From NCBI RefSeq assembly GCF_006542335.1, contig NZ_CP032485.1:2339001-2403000 (forward strand): DNA of 64,000 nucleotides, read 5' to 3'. A program made the position numbers and the translations under genes. Under the pieces are notes generated by a model. That model was not told where the DNA came from. It was given only the letters and a program-made list of their open reading frames with translations, and searched no databases. This DNA comes from Neokomagataea tanensis. Its GTDB lineage: Bacteria > Pseudomonadota > Alphaproteobacteria > Acetobacterales > Acetobacteraceae. This document shows positions 1,542 through 63,178 of this stretch, one piece after another; position 1 is the first letter of the stretch; each line of letters starts with the position of its first letter.

Positions 1542-3404
1542 ATGATAGAAAACACCCCCCTCGAAACGGCCGATACCCCTGTGGGAGTCGATGCTATACG
1601 CAATGCCCTCAAGACTATACCGCAGAACCCGGGCGTATACCGTATGTTGGGGAGTAAAGGTGAAGTCTTGTATGTGGGAAAAGCGCTAAACCTCAAAAAT
1701 CGCGTCACGTCCTATTTGCGCATACAGCAACTCCCTGAACGTTTGCGGCGGATGGTGTCCCTGACAAGCAGCATGGAGATTGTTATCACCAATAGCGAAG
1801 CTGATGCTTTACTGTTGGAAGCCAACTACATTAAGCGCATGAAACCGCGCTTCAATATCTTATTGCGCGATGACAAAAGCCTGCCATGGCTAGTACTGAC
1901 CGAAAGTCACGATTTTCCGCAAATTACAAAACAGCGCGGGAAACCCGTTAAGGGCGCCAGTTACTGGGGACCGTTCGCTTCGGCCTGGGCCGTTAACCAA
2001 ACCTTGAACCTCATTCAGCGCAACTTCTTGTTGAGAACCTGCTCCGACGCAATGTTGAGCAGTCGCACAAGACCGTGCCTGCTCTACCAAATTAAACGCT
2101 GTTCAGCCCCATGCGTCGATCGTATTTCGGCCGCGGATTACGCTGGCCTTGTAGAGCAAGCAAGGCTTTTCCTATCAGGGAAAAGCACCGAACTGCACGA
2201 GCAACTTATTGCCGAAATGGAAGAAGCTTCAGCCTCTCTGGAGTTTGAAAGGGCTGCCTCTATCCGTGACCGGATTAGAGGGTTCACCGGGCTGCAACAG
2301 TCTGGCGTGATCAACCCGACATCACTTCCCGACACAGACGTCGTGACAATTTGGCAGACAGCCGGACAGAGCTGCATTCAAGTCTTTTTCATAAGAGGAG
2401 GACGCAACAATGGTAACCGTGCTTTTTACCCCTCTCATGACCCGGAAGAATCAGAAAGCGCAGTACTAAGCGCCTTCCTGCTCCAGTTTTACGAAAACAA
2501 AACTCCGCCAACATCGCTGCTGATCAATCATAACCTTGATGAGCAGAGCCTTGTCGTAGATGCGCTATCCCTTACTAAAGGGCAAAAAATTAGCATTACC
2601 GTCCCACAGCGCGGACAGAAAAAAGATATTTTGGAACATGCCGCCCTCAATGCGCGTGAAGCACTCGAGCGCAAACTTGCCGAAAGTGCCGGACAAAAGC
2701 AGTTGCTTGAGGGTGTCGCAAAAATCTTTGATCTACCAAACACTCCTCAACGAATAGAAACTTACGATAACTCTCACATAATGGGGCAAGCGCCGTACGG
2801 AGTGATGGTAGTCGGCGGTCCAGAGGGTTTTGAAAAACGCGCCTACCGAAAATATTCAATCAAGGGGAACGTTACCCCTGGAGATGATTTTGGAATGATG
2901 CGTGAGGTTATGGAACGTAGATTTAAAAATCACCAGTCCGCATCTCCCGAATCATTGCCTGACTTACTCTTAATTGACGGTGGGCAAGGGCAATTTAATG
3001 CTGTGCGCGACATACTCAGCGCACTCGGGGTGAACGTCCCAATAGCAGCAATGGCAAAAGGGCCAGACCGAGATGCTGGACGGGAATGGTTTTTCACACA
3101 GCACAAAGCCCCCTTCCAATTACCCGAACGAGACCCTGTACTGTATTATCTACAGAGGTTGCGTGATGAGGCCCACCGGTTTGCAATCACAACCCACCGC
3201 ACAGGGCGCTCCAAAAAACTAAAATCGTCTGCGCTGGATAGTATTCCCAATATCGGTCCGGCCCGTAAGAAGCTTCTTTTAAACCATTTTGGATCCAGCA
3301 AGGGCGTGCAACAGGCATCCCTAGACACATTGCTTGCAGTGCCCGGAATTAACCATTCAATGGCAGAAACCATCTATGGTCATTTCCACCCTGAAGGGTC
3401 CTGA
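1542..3404 (+). CDS. uvrC: Excinuclease ABC subunit C (UvrC)
   Basis: UvrC makes the two incisions beside a bulky DNA lesion after UvrB loading. The 620-residue protein shows the whole family layout: an N-terminal GIY-YIG nuclease (GVYRML ... [13 protein letters not shown], about residues 30-60), a UVR helical motif near residues 215-245 ([14 protein letters not shown]), the RNase H-like 5' nuclease domain ([10 protein letters not shown], then [12 protein letters not shown]), and a C-terminal tandem helix-hairpin-helix ([19 protein letters not shown]). Length is typical. No LexA-type GTTC-N7-GTTC box lies upstream, so SOS control is not evident. The stop codon sits inside the loop of a terminator hairpin. 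Confidence 0.97.
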
Positions 3405-3428
3405 GGAGCCCTTCAGATATTTTCTTTT
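3391..3428 (+). terminator. Intrinsic terminator overlapping the uvrC stop codon
   Basis: Arms CTGAAGGG (3391-3398) and CCCTTCAG (3409-3416) form an 8-bp stem, followed by a T-rich tail (ATATTTTCTTTT). The uvrC stop (TGA, 3402-3404) lies in the loop, so translating ribosomes would have to clear before the stem can form. Confidence 0.75.
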
Positions 3429-3519
3429 CACAAACACAAACAAAAAATAGTGTAAATTTCATACGCTTGTCGCAGTATCGCGTATCCTACGGCTAAAAAT
3501 TTCTCTACAGTCCCAGACG

Positions 3520-4098
3520 ATGCTGACCGATTTGCCAAATGTTCTTACGCTTTTGCGTATTGCCCTAATTCCCGCCTTGGTTGCGCTGCTTGTGCTAGGC
3601 ACTGCGATTGGCCATTTAGCTGCACTCGCGGTGTACACTTTTGCATGTATTACAGACTACCTGGATGGTGCGCTCGCACGCCGTTGGCAGCAGCATTCAG
3701 AGCTGGGCAGAATGATGGATCCCATTGCAGACAAATTGCTGGTCGGCGCCCTTCTGTTAACCCTAGCAGGCACAAACTCTTTACCTTACCACGCCCTTTT
3801 TGCAGCAATCATTATTCTTATCCGGGAAATAATGGTCAGCGGTTTGCGTGAATACGTTGCCTCACAAGGCGGAAAACTGCCTTCCACACGTCTGGCTAAG
3901 TGGAAAACCGGCTTGCAGATGGTCTCTATTGGCTTTCTGGTTGCGGGGAACTCTATTGTCCCACTCTTGGGCTTAAAGCCCTTCAATGCCAGTGGTCTGG
4001 GGAGTATTCTACTATGGCTTTCCGTTATCCCGACCGTACTAAGCGGCTATGGTTACGCGAAAGCGGCATTAAAACACATGCAGAAAAAGATCATTTAA
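3520..4098 (+). CDS. pgsA: CDP-diacylglycerol--glycerol-3-phosphate 3-phosphatidyltransferase
   Basis: PgsA makes phosphatidylglycerol phosphate, the first step of anionic phospholipid synthesis. The 192-residue protein carries the CDP-alcohol phosphotransferase signature (D-G-x2-A-R-x8-G-x3-D-x3-D) in DGALARR ... GRMMDPIADK, about residues 50-71, plus several hydrophobic membrane segments. It starts with the usual LPNVLTLLRIALIP. It lies 115 bases after uvrC; uvrC-pgsA adjacency is common in proteobacteria, but a terminator separates them here. Confidence 0.95.
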   Translation: MLTDLPNVLTLLRIALIPALVALLVLGTAIGHLAALAVYTFACITDYLDGALARRWQQHSELGRMMDPIADKLLVGALLLTLAGTNSLPYHALFAAIIILIREIMVSGLREYVASQGGKLPSTRLAKWKTGLQMVSIGFLVAGNSIVPLLGLKPFNASGLGSILLWLSVIPTVLSGYGYAKAALKHMQKKII

Positions 4099-4194
4099 TA
4101 CATCAACCACTATTCTTTACATTCGGGCAGCATGAGATATAAAAATGTATCGAGCAAGACGTTAGACAAATAACTTGTCGCTTAGGAGTAGAAC

Positions 4195-4773
4195 ATGCGT
4201 AGAGCTGCTTTACTAGCAGTCCCTCTGGTCCTGAGTGGATGCTCTGGTCTTGGAAAATATTTCCACGACACTGTATTTTGGCCCGGTTACAACCCTAATC
4301 AGCCAGAAGGTACTAGCGAAAATCTTGCTAAAATTCGCGGAGAAAATATTTCCTCAGCGGCTCTTCTCCCAGCATCGGGCAATATCTGGCCAGCAGCGCC
4401 TCAGCCTCTACCCACACTAAAAGATGCCGCCAACCCCAACAGCCCATTTAATCAGTTGTTGAAAAATCCTGCTACATCGTTTGGAGCAGCTGAAGCTGGA
4501 TCCACTAGCGCCGCCTCGTACCTAGGTGGCGGAGCAGAAATGCCTTCAGGAGGGTCACTCTCAATAGGTGAGAATGCCTACGTACATGGTGGCGTCACAG
4601 GCGACCAAACGCATGTTCAGGCCCTACCAACGAGCGTCCCTGATGCTGCCGGCAAATACCTGCAAAAAGGGCAGGGCAAAGCGATCATTATTCCCAACGG
4701 CGACGGAACCAGCACAATCGTAAACAGCGATGGCTCCACAAGGACCGTTAAAGATTCAAAAATAAACAACTAG
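4195..4773 (+). CDS. Putative outer-membrane lipoprotein, function unknown
   Basis: A 192-residue protein with an N-terminal lipoprotein signal: MRRAAL, a short hydrophobic run, then the lipobox LSGC with the acylated Cys at residue 16. The residue after Cys is Ser, which favours outer-membrane sorting. The mature part is rich in Gly, Ser, Ala and Pro and low in predicted structure; the C-terminal third (GKAIIIPNGDGTSTI, then GSTRTVK) looks like a short beta repeat. I recognise no enzymatic domain. A good ribosome site (AGGAG at about 4184) precedes the ATG. A hairpin ends the gene. Confidence 0.8.
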   Translation: MRRAALLAVPLVLSGCSGLGKYFHDTVFWPGYNPNQPEGTSENLAKIRGENISSAALLPASGNIWPAAPQPLPTLKDAANPNSPFNQLLKNPATSFGAAEAGSTSAASYLGGGAEMPSGGSLSIGENAYVHGGVTGDQTHVQALPTSVPDAAGKYLQKGQGKAIIIPNGDGTSTIVNSDGSTRTVKDSKINN

Positions 4774-4783
4774 CAACGACTAA

Positions 4784-4809
4784 TTGGAGAGTATTTTTAT
4801 ACTCTCCAA
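4784..4809. terminator. Perfect 11-bp hairpin between convergent lipoprotein and lexA genes
   Basis: TTGGAGAGTAT (4784-4794) and its exact reverse complement (4799-4809) flank a TTTT loop. The two genes converge here, so it probably serves as a shared terminator. On the plus strand it is followed by an A-run rather than a T-run, so classic Rho-independent function is uncertain. Confidence 0.6.
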
Positions 4810-4822
4810 AAAATATGCTCAT

Positions 4823-5518
4823 TCAAACATAGTGCCGCATAATAGTTTTCAAGCGGCCTTGAATGCGAACTCTATCCGCCGAAAAAATTTGCGTTTCGTA
4901 AGCTGAATTAGCTGGCTCAAGAGCTACAGAGCGCCCATGACGGCGGAAAGTCTTAAGTGTCACCTCATGCTGATCAACTAAAGCAACGACTATTTGGCCA
5001 TTATCAGCAGATTGGCACTCTTGAATGATTGCCGTATCGCCGTCGTGTATTCCGATATCGACCATCGAATCGCCAGAGACGACTAAGGCGTAATGCTTGC
5101 CTGCGGCCAACATAGAGATGGGTACATCCACGCTATTATCAGGCTGCTCAACGGCTTCTATAGGAAGTCCCGCAGCGATACGCCCCAAAAGCGGAACAGA
5201 CACCATAGCGGGCATTTCATGCGCGCGCTGAGGCTCAGAAAAAACACCCTGAAGCACATTCTCCGGCAATACACTTTTCTGCTTTTCAGGTACGCTTTGC
5301 TCTAGGGCCGGAATTTTCAGTACTTCGAGGGCCCTAGCGCGATGATGATGACGGCGCAGGAAGCCCCTATCCTCAAGGGCCGATATTAAACGATGAATGC
5401 CTGATTTGGAGCGTAAAGACAGAGCATCTTTCATTTCATCGAAAGAAGGCGAGTACCCCGTCTGCTTAAGGTGCTTATCAATATATAAAAGAAGCTGATA
5501 TTGCTTTTGGGTAAGCAT
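4823..5518 (-). CDS. lexA: LexA repressor, SOS regulator
   Basis: LexA represses DNA-damage genes and is inactivated by RecA-stimulated self-cleavage. The 231-residue protein has the N-terminal winged helix (SPSFDEMKDALSLRSKSGIH, about residues 23-42), the Ala116-Gly117 cleavage site (GRIAAGLP), the catalytic Ser151 (SGDSM) and the Lys189 of VTLKTF. The hinge (about 70-105) is longer than in E. coli. An exact GTTC-N7-GTTC box lies about 40 bases upstream, so the gene should be autoregulated. It is divergent from rpmG. Confidence 0.97.
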   Translation of the reverse strand: MLTQKQYQLLLYIDKHLKQTGYSPSFDEMKDALSLRSKSGIHRLISALEDRGFLRRHHHRARALEVLKIPALEQSVPEKQKSVLPENVLQGVFSEPQRAHEMPAMVSVPLLGRIAAGLPIEAVEQPDNSVDVPISMLAAGKHYALVVSGDSMVDIGIHDGDTAIIQECQSADNGQIVVALVDQHEVTLKTFRRHGRSVALEPANSAYETQIFSADRVRIQGRLKTIMRHYV

Positions 5519-54522: not shown

Positions 54523-55655
54523 CTACCAAGATTTTGCTTTTATTATTTCAGATATACATGTCGTATATCGACCAGAGCGGAATGCAGATCGTGGAATCCA
54601 GTTCTGTTTTATACCGATAGAGGAGGCTCGAAGAGTCCCGGTGCCGAACCGGGCGTTAATATGATCCATTATTTTCATAGCCATCTTCGACGTTTCAGGC
54701 TGTCGCTTCATGAACAATTCACTTTGCATGCCCATGGGTCGTAGGTCCGTTAGGATAACCCCCGCTTTGAAATAACGATAATGAGGCAACCACGCGGCTT
54801 TACCAAAAACTGCCGCATGTTGGATCAGGTCGCGCGTATCCGACGTAGGTTCGATATTCCCACCAATATGCTTGTAATATTTAGGGTCGCTACTGTTTGG
54901 GTTCGTTTGAAGAAAGACCGATATATGCGCAGCCTCCAGATTTTCAGACCTTAGCTTTTCAGCTGCGCGCGTTGCGTAGCATGCAAGGGCTTCACGGATC
55001 TCGTTCCATTCCGTCAAAAGCCGCCCGAATGTTCTGGTCGATGCGATGCTCTTCCGCGCGGATGCAACATCCGACAGCGCAAGACATGATTGTCCCTTAA
55101 GCTCAGCCTGCACACGCGCACCAACGACCGTAAGTAATTTTCGCGCTACCTTGGGATCAAGCTCGACGAAATCGGCAATGGTTTGAACGCCCATCATTTG
55201 GAGCTTTTTAACGGTTTTACGCCCGATACCCCAAACTTCTTCGATACTTGTAACGGCGTACCATTCCTGACGGATTTGCACGTTCGTCAGGTCGCAAAGT
55301 CCACCAAAACGCATGCTGCTCTTAGCAAGGCCATTGGCGAGTTTGGCAATAGTTTTAGTGGGCCCCCAACCTATACAAGTAGGGATTTTAGCGTGGCACC
55401 ACACAGCATCACGTATTTCTGCGCAGCGCTCATGCAAATCGCCTGGCAAAGCATCAAGGTCCAAGAACATTTCATCGATAGAGTAGGGCTCTACCGTAGG
55501 AACATGATCTTGCAGCACCTCGTACATCCGGCGCGACATATCTGCATACAAAGCATAATTTGATGAGTACCACGCTACCGACCGTACTTCGGGCCTTTGA
55601 CGAGCAATATGCCAAGGCTCCCCCATTTTAACCCCGAGGACTTTGGCTTCGCTGT
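54523..55655 (-). pseudogene. umuC: UmuC-type error-prone DNA polymerase, 5' end lost
   Basis: The minus-strand frame from NSEAKVLGVKMGEPWHIAR (start at about 55655) to the end is a good UmuC: SSNYALYADMSRRMYEVL, EPYSIDEMFLDLD, GWGPTKTIAKLANGLAK, VWGIGRKTVKKL, then the little-finger and DUF4113 parts (NARFGTGTLR, SRRYTT-like GRYTT end). The first ~45 residues, including the catalytic Asp of the FALVDxNNFY motif, are gone; upstream the frame runs antisense through the recombinase gene without similarity. The polymerase should be dead. No missing 5' piece is found elsewhere in the window. Confidence 0.88.
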
Positions 55656-55683
55656 TATGCGGAATTGGGAGGACGATACACAC

Positions 55684-55712
55684 ACCTCCTGCTAGCATGC
55701 CAACGTGGAGGT
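55684..55712 (+). promoter_or_regulatory. Possible hairpin hiding the recombinase ribosome site
   Basis: ACCTCC (55684-55689) is the exact complement of GGAGGT (55707-55712), which holds the ribosome site for the ATG at 55720. Pairing would block translation initiation. The stem is only six base pairs with a 17-base loop, so this is tentative. Confidence 0.4.
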
Positions 55713-55719
55713 CGCAGTC

Positions 55720-56760
55720 ATGTCGCAGAAAACAGTGCACCAAGCGGAAGCTCAGATTGAAAGCTGGATCGCATTGCAGCGCGATCTCGGTAAAGCACCC
55801 AATACTGTTATTGCTTATGGAAGAGGGGTGCGCGATTTTGCCGCATTCTGCTGCATGGAAAGTTTCGACCTCCTTGAAGCGCGGAAAGGGACCATCGCTG
55901 CGTATTTGCATCACCTGCGTTCCCGCCCCCCGAGGGGCGGGAACGCAGGTGATGCAGGTCATGCATGCGCCACGTCTCCTATAATGGCAAACGCCTCATT
56001 GCGACACAGACTAACGATTATCCGACTGTTCTATGACCACCTTGTAGAAGAGGGGCTGCGCGGCACAAACCCCGTACCTCGCGGCCTCCGAGGAGCTATT
56101 GATGGATCCCGCCATCAGGGCGCACGTGGCCTAGTACCAGTCCACCGATCCCTTCCATGGATTCCTTCTGAAGAGCAGTGGCTAACAATCTTAGAGGCAG
56201 CACGAAGCGAGCCGATCCGCAACCGTCTCATGTTAGCATTCGCCTATGACTGCGCACTAAGGCGTGAGGAGCTATGTGCGTTAGAAACTTCAGACATAGA
56301 TCCTGCGCAGAAATTGATAACGATCCGCGCTGAAACAACAAAAACAAAAGCTGGCCGCGTCGTCCCTTACTCTGCTGTTACAGGGGAGTTACTTACCGTA
56401 TACCTTCGCGAACGTCGTGCCCTGAGTCGATCAAGAGGGCCACTCTTCCTATCGACCTCTCCACGAAATCTAACGATGCCAATCACCAAATGGACTTGGT
56501 CGAAAGTCGTGCGTGCCTTGGGAGTGAGGGCCGGCGAGCCGAAGCTCAGCACCCACACGATGCGGCATCTGTGTCTGACGGATCTGGCTCGGGTAGGATG
56601 GGACATACATGAGATCGCTCGATTTGCTGGCCATAGAAGTGTACAGACCACACTGCTTTATATTCACCTCAGCGCGCGCGACCTTTCGGCTAAGTTTGCT
56701 GCAACCGCTGCGGAACTACACGAAGCGCGACTTGCCTCAATCATGGAGGTACCACAATGA
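55720..56760 (+). CDS. Tyrosine recombinase, Tn554 TnpA-like
   Basis: A 346-residue site-specific recombinase. An N-terminal SAM-like core-binding domain (VIAYGRGVRDFAAFC; ANASLRHRLTIIRLFYDHL) precedes the catalytic domain with the full set: Arg in YDCALRREEL, Lys in TKTKAGRVV, HTMRH, GHRSVQTT and the Tyr of LLYIHLS. Size and its overlap (ATGA) with a second, larger recombinase match the TnpA-TnpB pair of Tn554-family elements. GTG 55705 is in frame, but GGAGG is correctly spaced for ATG 55720. A perfect 50-base palindrome lies within codons 63-79. Confidence 0.88.
   Translation: MSQKTVHQAEAQIESWIALQRDLGKAPNTVIAYGRGVRDFAAFCCMESFDLLEARKGTIAAYLHHLRSRPPRGGNAGDAGHACATSPIMANASLRHRLTIIRLFYDHLVEEGLRGTNPVPRGLRGAIDGSRHQGARGLVPVHRSLPWIPSEEQWLTILEAARSEPIRNRLMLAFAYDCALRREELCALETSDIDPAQKLITIRAETTKTKAGRVVPYSAVTGELLTVYLRERRALSRSRGPLFLSTSPRNLTMPITKWTWSKVVRALGVRAGEPKLSTHTMRHLCLTDLARVGWDIHEIARFAGHRSVQTTLLYIHLSARDLSAKFAATAAELHEARLASIMEVPQ
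55907..55956. repeat. Perfect palindrome, 23-bp arms with CCGA loop, inside recombinase gene
   Basis: Bases 55907-55929 and 55934-55956 are exact reverse complements; the loop is 55930-55933. The arms are GC-rich in the centre (CCCGCCCC/GGGGCGGG). It is in frame and encodes roughly HHLRSRPPRGGNAGDAG. Such a stem would be very stable in mRNA and can extrude as a cruciform in DNA. Confidence 0.95.
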
Positions 56761-59015
56761 GTATGTGCACTGATAAGTCCGCACCGTCTAGCAACGACTT
56801 CTGGGAAGCTACGCTCCCAACTGAACGATCGCCTGATCTGTCAATGCCTGAACACAATGCTTTGACCATTCTGGAGGAGCTGTTTGCTAAGCACCACACT
56901 CAACGACCGAAGAAGATCGCCTCCGATCTACAGCGACTTTTATTCCCTCTTGAAGCCGCCCTTGACCGCATAAAGACCGCAGCCGCTCCTAGAAACTCTG
57001 CATTGCGGGTAATGATGCAAGAGCTCATCATACGGCGGCGGGCATACTGGGCATGGTCTCAAAATGATTGGAAGGACGTGTTGGGCGCAACCGAAGGCGC
57101 GTTTCATAAGCGCAATGGCTGCCACGGTAATTGCCGACAGTATGTTATGATGATCGCCTATCGCCTAGGAGGCTTCGACCGCCTAGAAGACGTTGGAACC
57201 TTTTTCCAGTATCGATTAGCTTTGAAGGTGTTCGGTCGCAAAGATGTCGATGCGGTAGACGAGCGAGTACGGAATGAGATGCGTTCAATGGGCTTTCAGT
57301 CCAAAACGCCTCGTGGTCTGAGGTCTGCACTTTACTCCGCGTTGCTTTATCAAAGGTCGAGCCGTCTAGAGGATGTAACGCTCAAAACTTTGCGTCGCGT
57401 AGCGTCAAGCGATGTAAAAAGTATTCGCACGGGTGCGGCCTCTCTTTCGCGAGTATTGGAACGGCTAGGAACGATCGAACGAGGTTTTTGTCTTCGACAG
57501 GAAGAACGCCGACGCCCACCAGACGAACGTAAAGCCATCGAGGGCGTCCCTGACGAATGGCTGAGCTGGTGTGATCGATGGCGTGTAACTACTACCGCTG
57601 CTCCATCTTCGGTTACGAGTATTTATTATGGCATTCTCAAATGTGGTCGATGGCTTGGAGATCAGCATCCGGATATCCAATCACCAGCGCAATGGGATCG
57701 AGCACTTGCGCTCGAATATGCTGCCGTCGTCATGAAAATGCGGATAGGTGATTGGGCGACGCCGGCCGGTGGCTCTACGTGCAGAATCGGTGAGCCTATG
57801 AAACCATCAGCAATTGCCGCCAACCTCCGTTGCATAAGAGCCTTCTTTAACGACTTGCAGGGATGGGAATGGATTGCGCGCCGCTTCACTCCAGCACAAA
57901 CGCTTGTGCCGTCTCGCAGCATATTGGCAAAAATTGGTCCGGCGCCTCGGGTTATTGCCGATGATGTCTGGGCAAAACTGATATGGGCTGCTTTGAACTT
58001 AACGAAAACGGATCTTCAAGATCGGTCAAAGCGTGTGGGATGGGCAGACCAGCCACCTCGTTATCCTCTCGCCATGGTACGTGCAGTGGCAACTTTATGG
58101 CTGTTCGGCGGTCTAAGGCGCGACGAGATCTACCGCATGCGAGTGGGTGGAATACGATGGTCACCCTCTGCGGACGGCGAGAAGACTTCTCAGACCTGTC
58201 TCTTAGATGTGCCAGTCAACAAAACTAGCCGTGCCTTCACCAAACCCGTGGACCCTATCGTCGGAACGGCAATCGAGAAATGGGAGGCCGAACGACTACC
58301 GCACCCATACTCTGTCGATGATAAAACCGGCGAGCGGGTCAACTGGCTTTTCGTTTATAAAGGACGCCGTATGGGTGCCGCCTACATCAATCGTGCCCTC
58401 ATTCCACTCTTGTGCGCCAAGGGTGGTGTGCCTGAAAGAGACGCTCGCGGACGGATCACCAGCCACCGGGCTCGGGCAACAATCGCAACGCAACTCTTTA
58501 ATGCGAAAGAGCCGCTGTCGCTATTCGAGCTCCAAGCTTGGCTCGGCCACACCTCGCCGCAAGCAACGCAGTATTACGCGGCCGTTACGCCTACGAAGCT
58601 AGCCCGGTCGTTCGAACAAGCTGGTTACTTCGAGCGCAACATACGCACGATCGAAGTGCTTATCGATCCGGCGGCGCGACAGACGAGCCCCGAAGGCTCT
58701 GCAGAACCTTGGCAGTATTATGACCTAGGGCACGGCTATTGCACTTATGATTTCTTTGATCAGTGCGCGCACCGTATGGCGTGTGCCAAATGCTCATTTT
58801 ACGAACCAAAAGAGTCGGCGCGCATGCAGGCTCTGGAAGCGCAAGGTAACCTCAAAAAAATGTCTCAGAATATCCCCATGACCCCAACGGAACTAGAAGC
58901 TGTGAATGAGGGCGAGCGGTTGATGGCAGCCTTGGTCGCTGGCCTGGAACATGTGCAAACCCCAGACGGAAGGACGCGTCAGCAGATCGAAGCAAAGAAC
59001 TCAGGAGTGCCCTGA
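56757..59015 (+). CDS. Large tyrosine recombinase, Tn554 TnpB-like
   Basis: A 752-residue recombinase. After a long N-terminal region (about 1-420) comes the catalytic domain: Arg in LFGGLRRDEIYRM, Lys in VPVNKTSRAF, TSHRARAT, GHTSPQATQ and Tyr in QYYAAV. A C-terminal Cys-rich cluster (GYCTYDFFDQCAHRMACAKCSFYEPKES, quoted in pieces: CTYDFFDQCAHRMAC, then AKCSFY) followed by a helical tail is typical of TnpB-like members and probably binds zinc. It overlaps the TnpA-like gene by four bases. The third partner (tnpC) of Tn554 is absent. Confidence 0.87.
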   Translation: MSMCTDKSAPSSNDFWEATLPTERSPDLSMPEHNALTILEELFAKHHTQRPKKIASDLQRLLFPLEAALDRIKTAAAPRNSALRVMMQELIIRRRAYWAWSQNDWKDVLGATEGAFHKRNGCHGNCRQYVMMIAYRLGGFDRLEDVGTFFQYRLALKVFGRKDVDAVDERVRNEMRSMGFQSKTPRGLRSALYSALLYQRSSRLEDVTLKTLRRVASSDVKSIRTGAASLSRVLERLGTIERGFCLRQEERRRPPDERKAIEGVPDEWLSWCDRWRVTTTAAPSSVTSIYYGILKCGRWLGDQHPDIQSPAQWDRALALEYAAVVMKMRIGDWATPAGGSTCRIGEPMKPSAIAANLRCIRAFFNDLQGWEWIARRFTPAQTLVPSRSILAKIGPAPRVIADDVWAKLIWAALNLTKTDLQDRSKRVGWADQPPRYPLAMVRAVATLWLFGGLRRDEIYRMRVGGIRWSPSADGEKTSQTCLLDVPVNKTSRAFTKPVDPIVGTAIEKWEAERLPHPYSVDDKTGERVNWLFVYKGRRMGAAYINRALIPLLCAKGGVPERDARGRITSHRARATIATQLFNAKEPLSLFELQAWLGHTSPQATQYYAAVTPTKLARSFEQAGYFERNIRTIEVLIDPAARQTSPEGSAEPWQYYDLGHGYCTYDFFDQCAHRMACAKCSFYEPKESARMQALEAQGNLKKMSQNIPMTPTELEAVNEGERLMAALVAGLEHVQTPDGRTRQQIEAKNSGVP

Positions 59016-59372: not shown

Positions 59373-60110
59373 CTATTGGTAGAGGCGTGCTTCAGCCTCT
59401 GCGGGTGTGATATTACCGATGGACGAGAGAATACGGCGATTATTGAACCAATCGACCCATTTGAGGGTTGCAAGTTCAACGTCGCGTTTTCCTTTCCATG
59501 GCCCTTGCCGATAGATCAGCTCGGTTTTGTAGAGACCGTTAATCGTCTCTGCGAGCGCATTGTCATAGGAATCCCCGACACTGCCTACGGATGCGACAAG
59601 CCCTGCTTCGGCAAGGCGTTGTGTGTAGCGCAGACTGGCATATTGACTGCCGCGATCGGAGTGATAGGTGATTGAGAACCTACGGGATTTCGCGTGGCTA
59701 ATACTTGTTCCAAAGCATCAAGAACAAACGCGGTTTCAGCACTGGACGAGACGCGCCAGCCAACGATCACACGGGCAAACACATCAATGATAACAGCAAC
59801 ATAAACAAAGTCTTGCCGTGTAGAGACGTAGGCAAAGTTAGACACCCATAATTGGTTTGGGGCAGGAGCCCAAAACTGGCGGTGTACCAGATCCTCTGGG
59901 CAGAGGTCATGCGGCGTCAGGCCGCGTGGTTTTGAACTATTTTCCGCGCACAGCCCCCTTGAGGTCCATGCGCTTCATTAAACAACGTGCCACCGTGATT
60001 TTCTCACGTTTGAGTTGATGCCAGACTTTACGAGCCCCATACACACAGAAATTCTCGGTCCAAATTTGTCGAATATGCGTGCACAGTGTTTCATCCCTTT
60101 GAGCGGTGTG
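59373..60110 (-). pseudogene. IS3-family OrfB transposase, broken
   Basis: On the minus strand the integrase core is readable in pieces: ENFCVYGARKVWHQLKREKI, ending at a stop after VRGK; then KPRGLTPHDLCPEDL, WVSNFAYVSTRQDFVYVAV, IDVFARVIVGWRVS; then YHSDRGSQYASLRYTQRLAE, GSVGDSYDNALAETINGLYK and WFNNRRILSSIGNITPAEAE, ending at stop 59373. Two frameshifts split it, and the N-terminus plus OrfA are missing at the junction near 60105. It is an inactive relic of an IS3-type element. Confidence 0.88.
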
Positions 60111-60570
60111 TTGTTATTGCCGTTACGAGATCAGCGATCGCGACCTTGAAAGCATGTTAGCTGAGCGCGGCGTGAGTGTTGATCATTCAAGGATTTACCG
60201 CCGGGTCCAGCGCTATGCGCCGGAGATGGAAAAGCGCCTTCAGTGGTATTGGAAACGTTCAGGATTTTCCAGCAACTGGCGGATGGATGAGACTTACATC
60301 AAGGTCAAAGGACAATGGGCGTATCTATCCCGTGCTGTCGGTAAAAACGATGATACGATTGATTTCTTATTCTCACCAACCCAAAACGCCAAGGCGGCCA
60401 AACGCTTTTCGGGCAAAGCTTTGAACGGTCTGAGGGGGGATAAAAGCCCGAAAACCGCTTATGCAACCATTAAAGACTTCGAGGTCATGAAAACTCTGAA
60501 AAAGGGACAAGCTAAACTCTTCCAGTTCCAAGAGGCTATCATGGGAGAAGTGCGTCTCATCGAGAGCTAA
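60106..60570 (+). pseudogene. IS6-family transposase, remnant B with internal deletion
   Basis: Starts abruptly at CYCRYEISDRDLESMLAERG and continues SVDHSRIYRRVQRYAPEMEK, WRMDETYIKVKGQWAYLSRA, DTIDFLFSPTQNAKAAKRF. It then jumps from GLRGDKSP straight to KTAYATIKDFEVMKTLKKGQ, so about 55-60 residues with the last catalytic Glu region are deleted in frame. About 30 N-terminal residues are also missing. It cannot be active. The frame is open for 154 codons and may be mis-called as a gene. Confidence 0.88.
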
Positions 60571-60895: not shown

Positions 60896-63178
60896 TTGGG
60901 AACGATCGACGTCTCAAACGCTACGCAGAATAATCTGCGCGGGGTCTCGATTTCCATTCCTGTAGGAAAAATCACGGCATTCACGGGCGTCTCGGGTTCG
61001 GGAAAATCCTCACTCGTTTTTGGCGTGCTGGCTGCCGAATCCCAGCGGCAGCTGAATTTCACTTATCCCACTTATGTCCGAAATCGGCTGCCCCATGGAG
61101 GCACACCTCAGGTCGATCATATCTCTGGCCTGTCGACCGCCATCATTATCGACCAAAAACCTCTTGGCACGAACCGTCGCTCGACCGTCGGTACCGCGAC
61201 GGACGCGGCACCGCTGCTGCGCCTAATCGTTTCGCGCATGGGGTCACCGTTCGTCGGCTATTCCCACGTCTTTTCCTTCAACGACAAGGCCGGAATGTGC
61301 CCACGATGTGAGGGGTTAGGTGAGACAATTGATCTGGACGAAAGCGAACTAATCGATTTTAACAAGTCGATCAATGAGGGTGCGTTTACTTTCAGCGGCT
61401 ATGCAGTCGGCACTTGGTACTGGAAATGGTACAAACGCACAGGCTTGTTTGATGCCGATCGTAAGTTATGCGACTATGCCGCGGAAGATCTCGACCTGCT
61501 GCTGTATGCCGAGCCAAAGCCACTGAAAAACCCGCCTCCTGACTGGTATGCGACCGCCAAATATGAAGGCGTGGTGCATCGTTTCCGTCGCATGTATCTT
61601 GGTAGTAGGCAAACCACGCATAAAGGTCAGATCGCTCGCGATCTGGAACGCATTATTCATCGCACGACATGTCCGGTGTGCAAGGGCGCTAGGCTAAACG
61701 CGGCGGCGCTGAGTTGCAAGATCGATGGGCGGAATATCGACGATCTCAGTCGCTTGCCGATTTCGGAGCTGTTGGAGATCGTGGAGGCTTGGCGGGTGCC
61801 CGAACTATCGCCCGCCATCGAAAACCTGATCAGTCAGCTGCGCACTCTGGTGGAACTAGGCTTAGGATACCTACAGCTTGGCCGTACGACGCCGACCATC
61901 TCGGGCGGAGAAGGGCAGCGGATCAAGATGGTCCGCCATCTCGGTAGCTCGCTGACACGATTTACCTATATTCTCGACGAACCGTCAACCGGTCTGCATC
62001 CGCGCGACGTGCGGCACCTTGCTATGATTATTCGCCGCCTACGCGACAAGGGCAATACGGTTTTACTGGTCGAACATGATCCCGACCTGATCGATATCGC
62101 CGACTTTATCGTGGACATGGGGCCCGGTCCAGGCGACGAGGGTGGTAACGTGCTGTTCGCCGGGAGACTTGAGGACCTAAAAGCCTCCACGACGCCAACC
62201 GGTCTGTATCTGCGCGCATCCCGGAAATTCTCTGCCCCACGCAGACCGCATGGCGACCTGATCCGGGTGCGCAACGCGCGCCGCCATAATTTATGTGGCG
62301 TCGATGTGGATATTCCTCGTGGCCTGCTGACAGCCCTGACCGGTGTCGCGGGTTCGGGAAAGAGCTCGCTGGTACATGAGATTTTGGCAGCAGCGCCATC
62401 CGCTCAGCTGATCGATCAAAGCCCTCTCCGCGGGAGCATTGCGTCAAGTATCGCGACATACACGGCTGCCATGGATCGTATCCGTGATCTCATGGCGCGG
62501 GCCAATCGGGTATCGCGGGGTTGGTTCACCAGTGCTGGTAAAGGGGCGTGCCCGGTGTGCAAGGGGCGCGGCGTGATCGTTACCGAACTTGCATTTCTCG
62601 ATAGTACCGAGACCGATTGCGAGGCCTGTAGCGGCAGTGGTTTCAACCAGACGGCACTTGGCTTTCACTTTGGGGGCTATAACATAGCCGATATTCTAAG
62701 CATGTCAGCCAAGCGAGCGGCTGACTTTCTTGCTCCGCACGCTCCTGATGCTGCAATAGTCCTCGGCCGATTGACGCGAGTAGGCCTCGGACATCTTGCA
62801 ATCGGACGCTCGACGGCGAGCCTTTCGGGAGGCGAGAGACAGCGGCTGAAACTTTCTTCCTTACTTGATGACGACATCGACACACTTATTCTAGACGAAC
62901 CAACGACCGGGCTGCATGGTTCGGACGTCACACGTTTACTGGCTCTGTTCCAGGGCCTCGTGGGGCAGGGAAAAACGGTGGTGATGGTTGAACATAATTT
63001 GGATGCTATGCTTGCCGCAGACTGGATCGTGGATTTAGGGCCAGAGGCCGGCAGCGGTGGTGGTCAGGTTATGTATACAGGCCCTGCGTCAAAAATATTG
63101 AAAGCAAAGCGCACCGCCACCGGAGATGAGCTGCGCCGTTATATCGACATTGATGCGCAGCGCAGGAAAACCGCTTAA
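60896..63178 (+). CDS. Short UvrA-like ABC ATPase lacking the UvrB-interaction region
   Basis: A 760-residue protein with two UvrA-type ABC modules. First: GVSGSGKSSL (31-40), CPRCEGLG, CPVCKGARLN, signature TISGGEGQRIK near residue 335, ILDEPSTGLHPRD. Second: GVAGSGKSSLVHE, the zinc module CPVCKGRG ... CEACSGSGF, SLSGGERQRLKL, ILDEPTTGLHGSD. UvrA is about 940 residues; here the part between the first Walker A and signature is about 150 residues shorter, where the UvrB-binding domain normally lies. Similar short forms include UvrA2/UvrA3 and DrrC-type drug-resistance proteins. TTG start with strong AGGAG six bases before. Confidence 0.9.
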   Translation: MGTIDVSNATQNNLRGVSISIPVGKITAFTGVSGSGKSSLVFGVLAAESQRQLNFTYPTYVRNRLPHGGTPQVDHISGLSTAIIIDQKPLGTNRRSTVGTATDAAPLLRLIVSRMGSPFVGYSHVFSFNDKAGMCPRCEGLGETIDLDESELIDFNKSINEGAFTFSGYAVGTWYWKWYKRTGLFDADRKLCDYAAEDLDLLLYAEPKPLKNPPPDWYATAKYEGVVHRFRRMYLGSRQTTHKGQIARDLERIIHRTTCPVCKGARLNAAALSCKIDGRNIDDLSRLPISELLEIVEAWRVPELSPAIENLISQLRTLVELGLGYLQLGRTTPTISGGEGQRIKMVRHLGSSLTRFTYILDEPSTGLHPRDVRHLAMIIRRLRDKGNTVLLVEHDPDLIDIADFIVDMGPGPGDEGGNVLFAGRLEDLKASTTPTGLYLRASRKFSAPRRPHGDLIRVRNARRHNLCGVDVDIPRGLLTALTGVAGSGKSSLVHEILAAAPSAQLIDQSPLRGSIASSIATYTAAMDRIRDLMARANRVSRGWFTSAGKGACPVCKGRGVIVTELAFLDSTETDCEACSGSGFNQTALGFHFGGYNIADILSMSAKRAADFLAPHAPDAAIVLGRLTRVGLGHLAIGRSTASLSGGERQRLKLSSLLDDDIDTLILDEPTTGLHGSDVTRLLALFQGLVGQGKTVVMVEHNLDAMLAADWIVDLGPEAGSGGGQVMYTGPASKILKAKRTATGDELRRYIDIDAQRRKTA

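Follow-up and report, generated by a model that had tools for sequence, protein, structure and literature searches.

The window, a stretch of 64,000 nucleotides from the genome of Neokomagataea tanensis, contains a tyrosine recombinase gene (55705-56760, + strand) that harbours a long DNA palindrome. The open reading frame spans 351 codons, 346 of them from the ATG at 55720, and its product carries a Phage_integrase domain (PF00589) and matches the XerC and XerD models of NCBIfam below their cut-offs. The stop of this gene is overlapped by the start of a second, large tyrosine recombinase gene (56757-59015, + strand; 752 aa, PF00589), and to its left lies a fragment of the Y-family polymerase gene umuC (54523-55666, - strand) that is without about its first 37 codons and matches positions 38-422 of the 422-position UmuC profile. 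The left end of the element joins umuC near position 55660 (an approximate placing), where umuC sequence resumes at ...NSEAK..., and the palindrome is situated some 240-265 bp inside this end. A Y-family polymerase is also annotated beside the recombinase in three related loci (L005, L006 and L024) and was recognised by eye from an open reading frame in a fourth (L008), while by-eye reading recovered only a remnant from L007 and, from L009, no more than a few residues. Taken together, the umuC fragment at the left end and the polymerase neighbours in relatives indicate that the element inserts in umuC, and the palindrome-bearing gene is part of a two-recombinase, umuC-inserting element. In a Klebsiella locus (L025) the left end abuts the UmuC N-terminus instead (3255-3500, + strand). 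As the window's element borders at its left end on the C-terminal portion of umuC, whereas in L025 the N-terminal portion is the neighbour, both orientations of insertion in umuC seem to occur among related elements.

In L009, from Paracoccus sediminis, the open reading frames to the left of the pair (around 3000-5000) resemble ABC-transporter genes by eye, not umuC. Downstream of the second recombinase in the window, open reading frames resembling transposase fragments by eye lie at 59376-60570, followed by a 760-aa frame (60896-63178, + strand) with the look of a UvrA-type ABC protein; an IS6 transposase is annotated downstream of the second recombinase in L005. Tn554, to which the sequence-only reading had likened the gene, carries tnpA-tnpB-tnpC and inserts at att554.

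The palindrome itself (55907-55956) consists of a 23-nt left arm (55907-55929, + strand), a four-nucleotide loop of sequence CCGA (55930-55933, + strand) and a 23-nt right arm (55934-55956, + strand) that is the reverse complement of the left, the two arms being 100% complementary. It lies in frame and covers codons 63-79 of the recombinase, so that the arm match and the reading frame together confirm the earlier description of a perfect, in-frame 50-base palindrome with 23-base arms. No other perfect inverted repeat with a loop of up to 12 nt in the 64-kb window is as long, the next independent one being 15 bp; the number of 23-bp repeats expected in the window from base composition is 1.2e-8, which rules out a chance origin. 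The host genome contains a single copy at up to three mismatches. A GC-rich hairpin followed by a T run, as in an intrinsic terminator, was looked for and not found, and a search of RNA families returned nothing at the gathering score and five miRNA-precursor matches below it. The argument that the mere survival of so long a palindrome proves a function is unsupported as it was stated.

The placing of the arms within the protein also agrees with the original assignment to the core-binding domain. In a structure model (mean pLDDT 81.3) the left arm encodes residues 63-70, the end of the helix formed by residues 56-67 plus RP, and the right arm encodes residues 72-79, which open a loop (residues 72-90) that is predicted to be disordered (pLDDT <50). 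It is not the case, then, that both arms encode conserved protein, the right arm coding for the start of this low-pLDDT loop; other homologues differ at the right-arm segment, and deletions are tolerated in the loop. Pairing between the arms is in codon phase 1 to 1, which is presented in the relevant part of one study as the least constraining arrangement (PMC6649704).

A search of plasmids found 513 records with a relative, the closest full-length ones being three Pseudochrobactrum records (84%), one of which was compared, and a Paracoccus marcusii record (76%). A scan of genomes gave nine loci, of which two belong to the clade of the window's gene, and with L007 added six DNA loci were comparable. 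All six have a palindrome at the same codons, with arms of differing sequence; homologues with the same protein segment and no base pairing, named at the outset as the contrary case, were thus not seen in the clade's DNA. The perfect arms measure 23 bp in the window, 26 in L005, 20 in L006, 26 in L008 and 21 in L009, and the palindromes of the last four loci have no unpaired centre. L005 and L008 are perfect 52-mers without a loop, and a perfect 40-mer and a perfect 42-mer also occur among the relatives, matching in L006 and L009 ending after 20 and 21 pairs. L007 has 22-bp arms with one G·T, and strictly perfect arms in its gene reach 7 bp at most, but several genes in this record are broken, and sequencing errors may account for the G·T and the shorter centre.

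None of the 16 distant loci measured (among them L013, L015, L016, L018 and L030, as well as L010 and L011, which come from one genome) has a perfect arm of more than 8 bp, the longest being 6 to 8 bp with loops of up to 12 nt, and there is no palindrome in L024 or L025, the relatives found beside or inside umuC. Searches for further clade DNA in 150 genomes (E 1e-40) and in sets of 394, 385, 125, 397 and 94 partly overlapping genomes (E 1e-90) returned none beyond the window and two Paracoccus loci. Phage and viral collections held no relative at E 1e-20, nor any that was found with six exact peptide patterns.

The arms of the six loci have changed together. In the alignment of the six loci, pairing holds in 92.2% of 154 cells, compared with 80.5% in shuffled alignments and at most 50.7% in slid structures; both sides have changed in 12 of 26 pairs (5.5 when shuffled), and the covariation score is 0.397 (0.177 when shuffled). 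Each of these three values was reached by 0 of 500 shuffles, although cells count sequences rather than events, and the shuffles, like the permutations described below, ignore relatedness. A measure of further pair types showed no excess (279 of 500 shuffles). Of the 118 cells that make up the inner 20 pairs (columns 7-46), 116 show Watson-Crick pairing, the exceptions being the G·T of L007 and a mismatch at the window's own centre, and 17 cells have changed on both sides. Joint changes extend to the outer pairs (column 3 of 26, in L008). With L007 set aside, pairing within a locus covers 20-26 of 26 positions and pairing between arms of different loci 15-23, the left arm of L006 pairing equally well (20) with the right arm of L009 and with its own. 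Across the same five loci, identity between loci is 72.3% for the left arm, 72.3% for the right arm and 73.7% for the left flank; it is 45.9% for the next 27 nt of the loop that the right arm opens.

The same signal is found in proteins. For each protein we counted the pairs, out of the 19 innermost, that the best synonymous codon choice would allow, scoring 55 of the first 60 of 120 listed proteins; P0021, P0022, P0026, P0035 and P0037 were left out because they had a gap in the centre column or lacked the segment. The clade (P0001-P0016, picked from the alignment) allows 16-19 pairs, with a mean of 18.5 that falls to 17.7 when the right arm is taken from another member, and 0 of 20,000 permutations reached the clade's own-arm sum. 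For the 39 other homologues the values are 14.4 with their own arms and 14.3 with swapped ones. As to the contrary case of a shared segment without pairing, one of the 16 clade proteins, P0006, stood out with a fit of no more than 16 of 19 pairs. In a midpoint-rooted tree of 42 rows the 16 proteins form one side of a branch (support 100/99), with members down to 64% identity to the window's protein, and among the best 120 of 3,940 matches to an 11-member clade alignment a second search recovered the same 16 full-length members plus the fragments P0022 and P0035. Two proteins from Delftia and its kin, P0028 and P0029, are not among the 16 clade members and could form 18 of 19 pairs by codon choice, as calculated from the proteins alone. 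Since P0028 falls outside the clade in the tree (from which P0029 was absent) and the related locus L024 has no palindrome, their fit is probably due to chance. Joint change in DNA and the codon-constraint test both show pairing beyond what the protein needs, the point on which an alignment of homologues had been proposed as a check. The finding is genuine and stronger than it first appeared, in that the palindrome stays near-perfect throughout the clade while its sequence turns over.

We consider, with a probability of a little over one half (roughly 0.55) and on a sample of 6 DNA loci and 16 protein clusters, that this is a coding palindrome under concerted evolution which is kept near-perfect mainly through hairpin-templated copying between its arms. 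In the ancestor of the clade a single fold-back (template-switch) event would have copied the end of the core-binding helix, in reverse, into the disordered loop that follows it. After mutation of one arm, a hairpin would form in the strand as it is replicated, and copying of one arm from the other would restore the pairing, and selection would remove those changes that spoil the helix encoded by the left arm. Such selection on the helix would mean that the disordered right arm mostly follows the left, which it may be free to do because, in the model, the left arm lies at a helix end and the right where a loop of low confidence (pLDDT <50) begins. A comparison of L005 with L008 illustrates this direction: silent changes in the left arm (CTG to CTA and CTG to CTT) are mirrored on the right as Thr to Ile and Ala to Glu. 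When ten locus pairs are summed over the inner six codons, silent and replacement changes number 4 and 23 on the left and 4 and 19 on the right, and the similarity of these counts indicates that, in a set of this small size, the right arm does not follow the left as a general rule. Copying is favoured by the near absence of half-way states (116 of 118 Watson-Crick cells against the 17 that changed on both sides) and by a divergence of the arms that resembles that of the left flank. The idea that template switching gave rise to the palindrome, which had been put forward from the first, is the one that fits best, with the difference that the process would account for its upkeep as well as its origin. 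A function of the hairpin is not needed for this explanation, although an effect on translation is plausible.

Several observations count against copying. Selection on a hairpin would also yield joint changes; all 16 clade proteins keep 16-19 of 19 pairs, when a useless, deletion-prone palindrome might sometimes lose its pairing; and function could underlie persistence across the clade. The alternative that these points suggest, which we regard as doubtful but deserving of attention, is that pairing is under selection because the palindrome forms a functional hairpin in the mRNA, approximately 200 nt into the gene, that tunes or lowers the output of both overlapping recombinases. The conserved place in the gene, the joint arm changes and the retention of at least 16 of 19 pairs in all 16 clade proteins would be expected on this basis, and all six loci give a stable predicted RNA fold (-45 to -60 kcal/mol, z -5.9 to -12.3). 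However, a single mismatch costs on average only 6-7% of the energy (for hairpins of -43 to -56 kcal/mol), and yet only one G·U is found among the inner cells. Because outer pairs also change jointly at so small a cost, selection on stability would need great fineness. Counting in the other direction, whole-arm swaps are far costlier than single mismatches (in the worst case leaving -24.7 kcal/mol). The arms are, on the other hand, no better conserved than the left flank, the searches for terminators and RNA families gave no support, and distant homologues do without the palindrome.

Rather improbable, in our estimation, is a DNA-level site, in which an extruded or single-stranded hairpin serves as a target for the element's recombinases or for host replication; here both strands would need pairing and G·T would not be tolerated. 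The near absence of wobble pairs is as such a need would give, two recombinases are encoded beside the palindrome, and single-strand DNA folds were predicted in the two loci tested (-34.3 and -36.4 kcal/mol). Nevertheless, the palindrome lies well inside the element and away from the umuC junction, the related elements of L024 and L025 do without it, and arm sequence varies as widely as the flanking coding sequence, which rules out a binding site of fixed sequence. An inserted mobile palindrome of the Rickettsia palindromic element type would suit an in-frame position in a tolerant loop in a single clade, but we think it very improbable: there is one exact copy in each of four genomes or records, the window's own genome has a single copy, the other matches (four in G150 and three in G151) have three mismatches and are close in number to a reversed-pattern control (2 and 3), and the arms remain matched without decay. 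Finally, an assembly or amplification fold-back, to which we give practically no credence and for which no support was found, is refuted by palindromes of differing sequence at the same codons in six separate records.

The closest parallel to copying between coding arms is provided by the mitochondrial palindromes of Nematomorpha, which are described as perfect inverted repeats in protein-coding genes with few imperfect ones among them (PMC6649704). The window's palindrome resembles these in combining a long perfect inverted repeat in a predicted coding gene with arm identity that is kept despite sequence change, and the two also share phase-1 codon pairing and a proposed role for template switching in upkeep (PMC6649704). 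The lack of imperfect repeats is argued there to be a sign that a conversion mechanism may keep the perfect ones, and Lavi et al. 2018 is cited for the view that inverted repeats are actively maintained in bacterial genomes (PMC6649704). The Nematomorpha palindromes, as portrayed in that account, differ in being many, up to 284 bp long, and gained and lost over time, whereas here a single palindrome (40-52 bp in the clade) in a bacterial mobile-element gene has been kept at one place, and only its left arm codes for a segment that is ordered in the model. Template switching has been reported to make imperfect palindromes (quasipalindromes) perfect in Escherichia coli (PMC7202029), although in laboratory reporter constructs, while the present case would be its long-term effect on a natural gene. 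It has also been proposed to maintain RNA hairpins (PMC8794818), where both arms likewise change jointly, but in RNA genes with short stems. Homogenisation of arms in yeast similarly alters amino acids by arm copying; the events presented are at the strain level, with no single long palindrome kept through a clade in the portion of that report relevant here (PMC8604942). Rickettsia palindromic elements are likewise palindromes in bacterial coding sequence, but can transpose, and their arms become less alike over time, according to the same source that describes Nematomorpha (PMC6649704), and the window palindrome has no dispersed genomic copies of that type. PARCELs are bacterial coding palindromes too, but imperfect and tandemly repeated in the description available (PMC2996958). 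In the best-matching open-licence titles and abstract openings of PubMed Central no bacterial coding palindrome kept in this way is mentioned, though Lavi et al. 2018, on Proteobacteria, may bear on the question.

The element itself is reminiscent of the integron-like elements found in rulB/umuC-type genes (PMC4542609) and of GInts (PMC5385486), which also have tyrosine recombinases at one end; with the former it shares insertion in a umuC-type gene, as seen at its left junction. Both kinds are described with three recombinases, GInts also with ginD (PMC4542609, PMC5385486), whereas two tyrosine recombinases, and no ginABCD operon, were found at the mapped left end in the window. A GAT direct repeat is given for the insertion point of the integron-like elements (PMC4542609). 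The string 'palindrom' does not occur in the main texts of PMC4542609 and PMC5385486.

It is an even call whether the palindrome has preserved itself through hairpin-templated copying since the ancestor of the clade, with a loop of the recombinase forced to mirror a helix in its DNA. A bolder idea still would be that the hairpin acts as a folded-DNA or RNA switch that gates the recombinases. When two arms change in step, this is commonly taken to prove selection on RNA structure. In the present case the joint changes fall within a coding gene, half-way states are almost lacking and the arms diverge as their flank does, as would be predicted if one arm were copied from the other. Since the locus is small and portable, mutation bias and selection would be separable by experiment.
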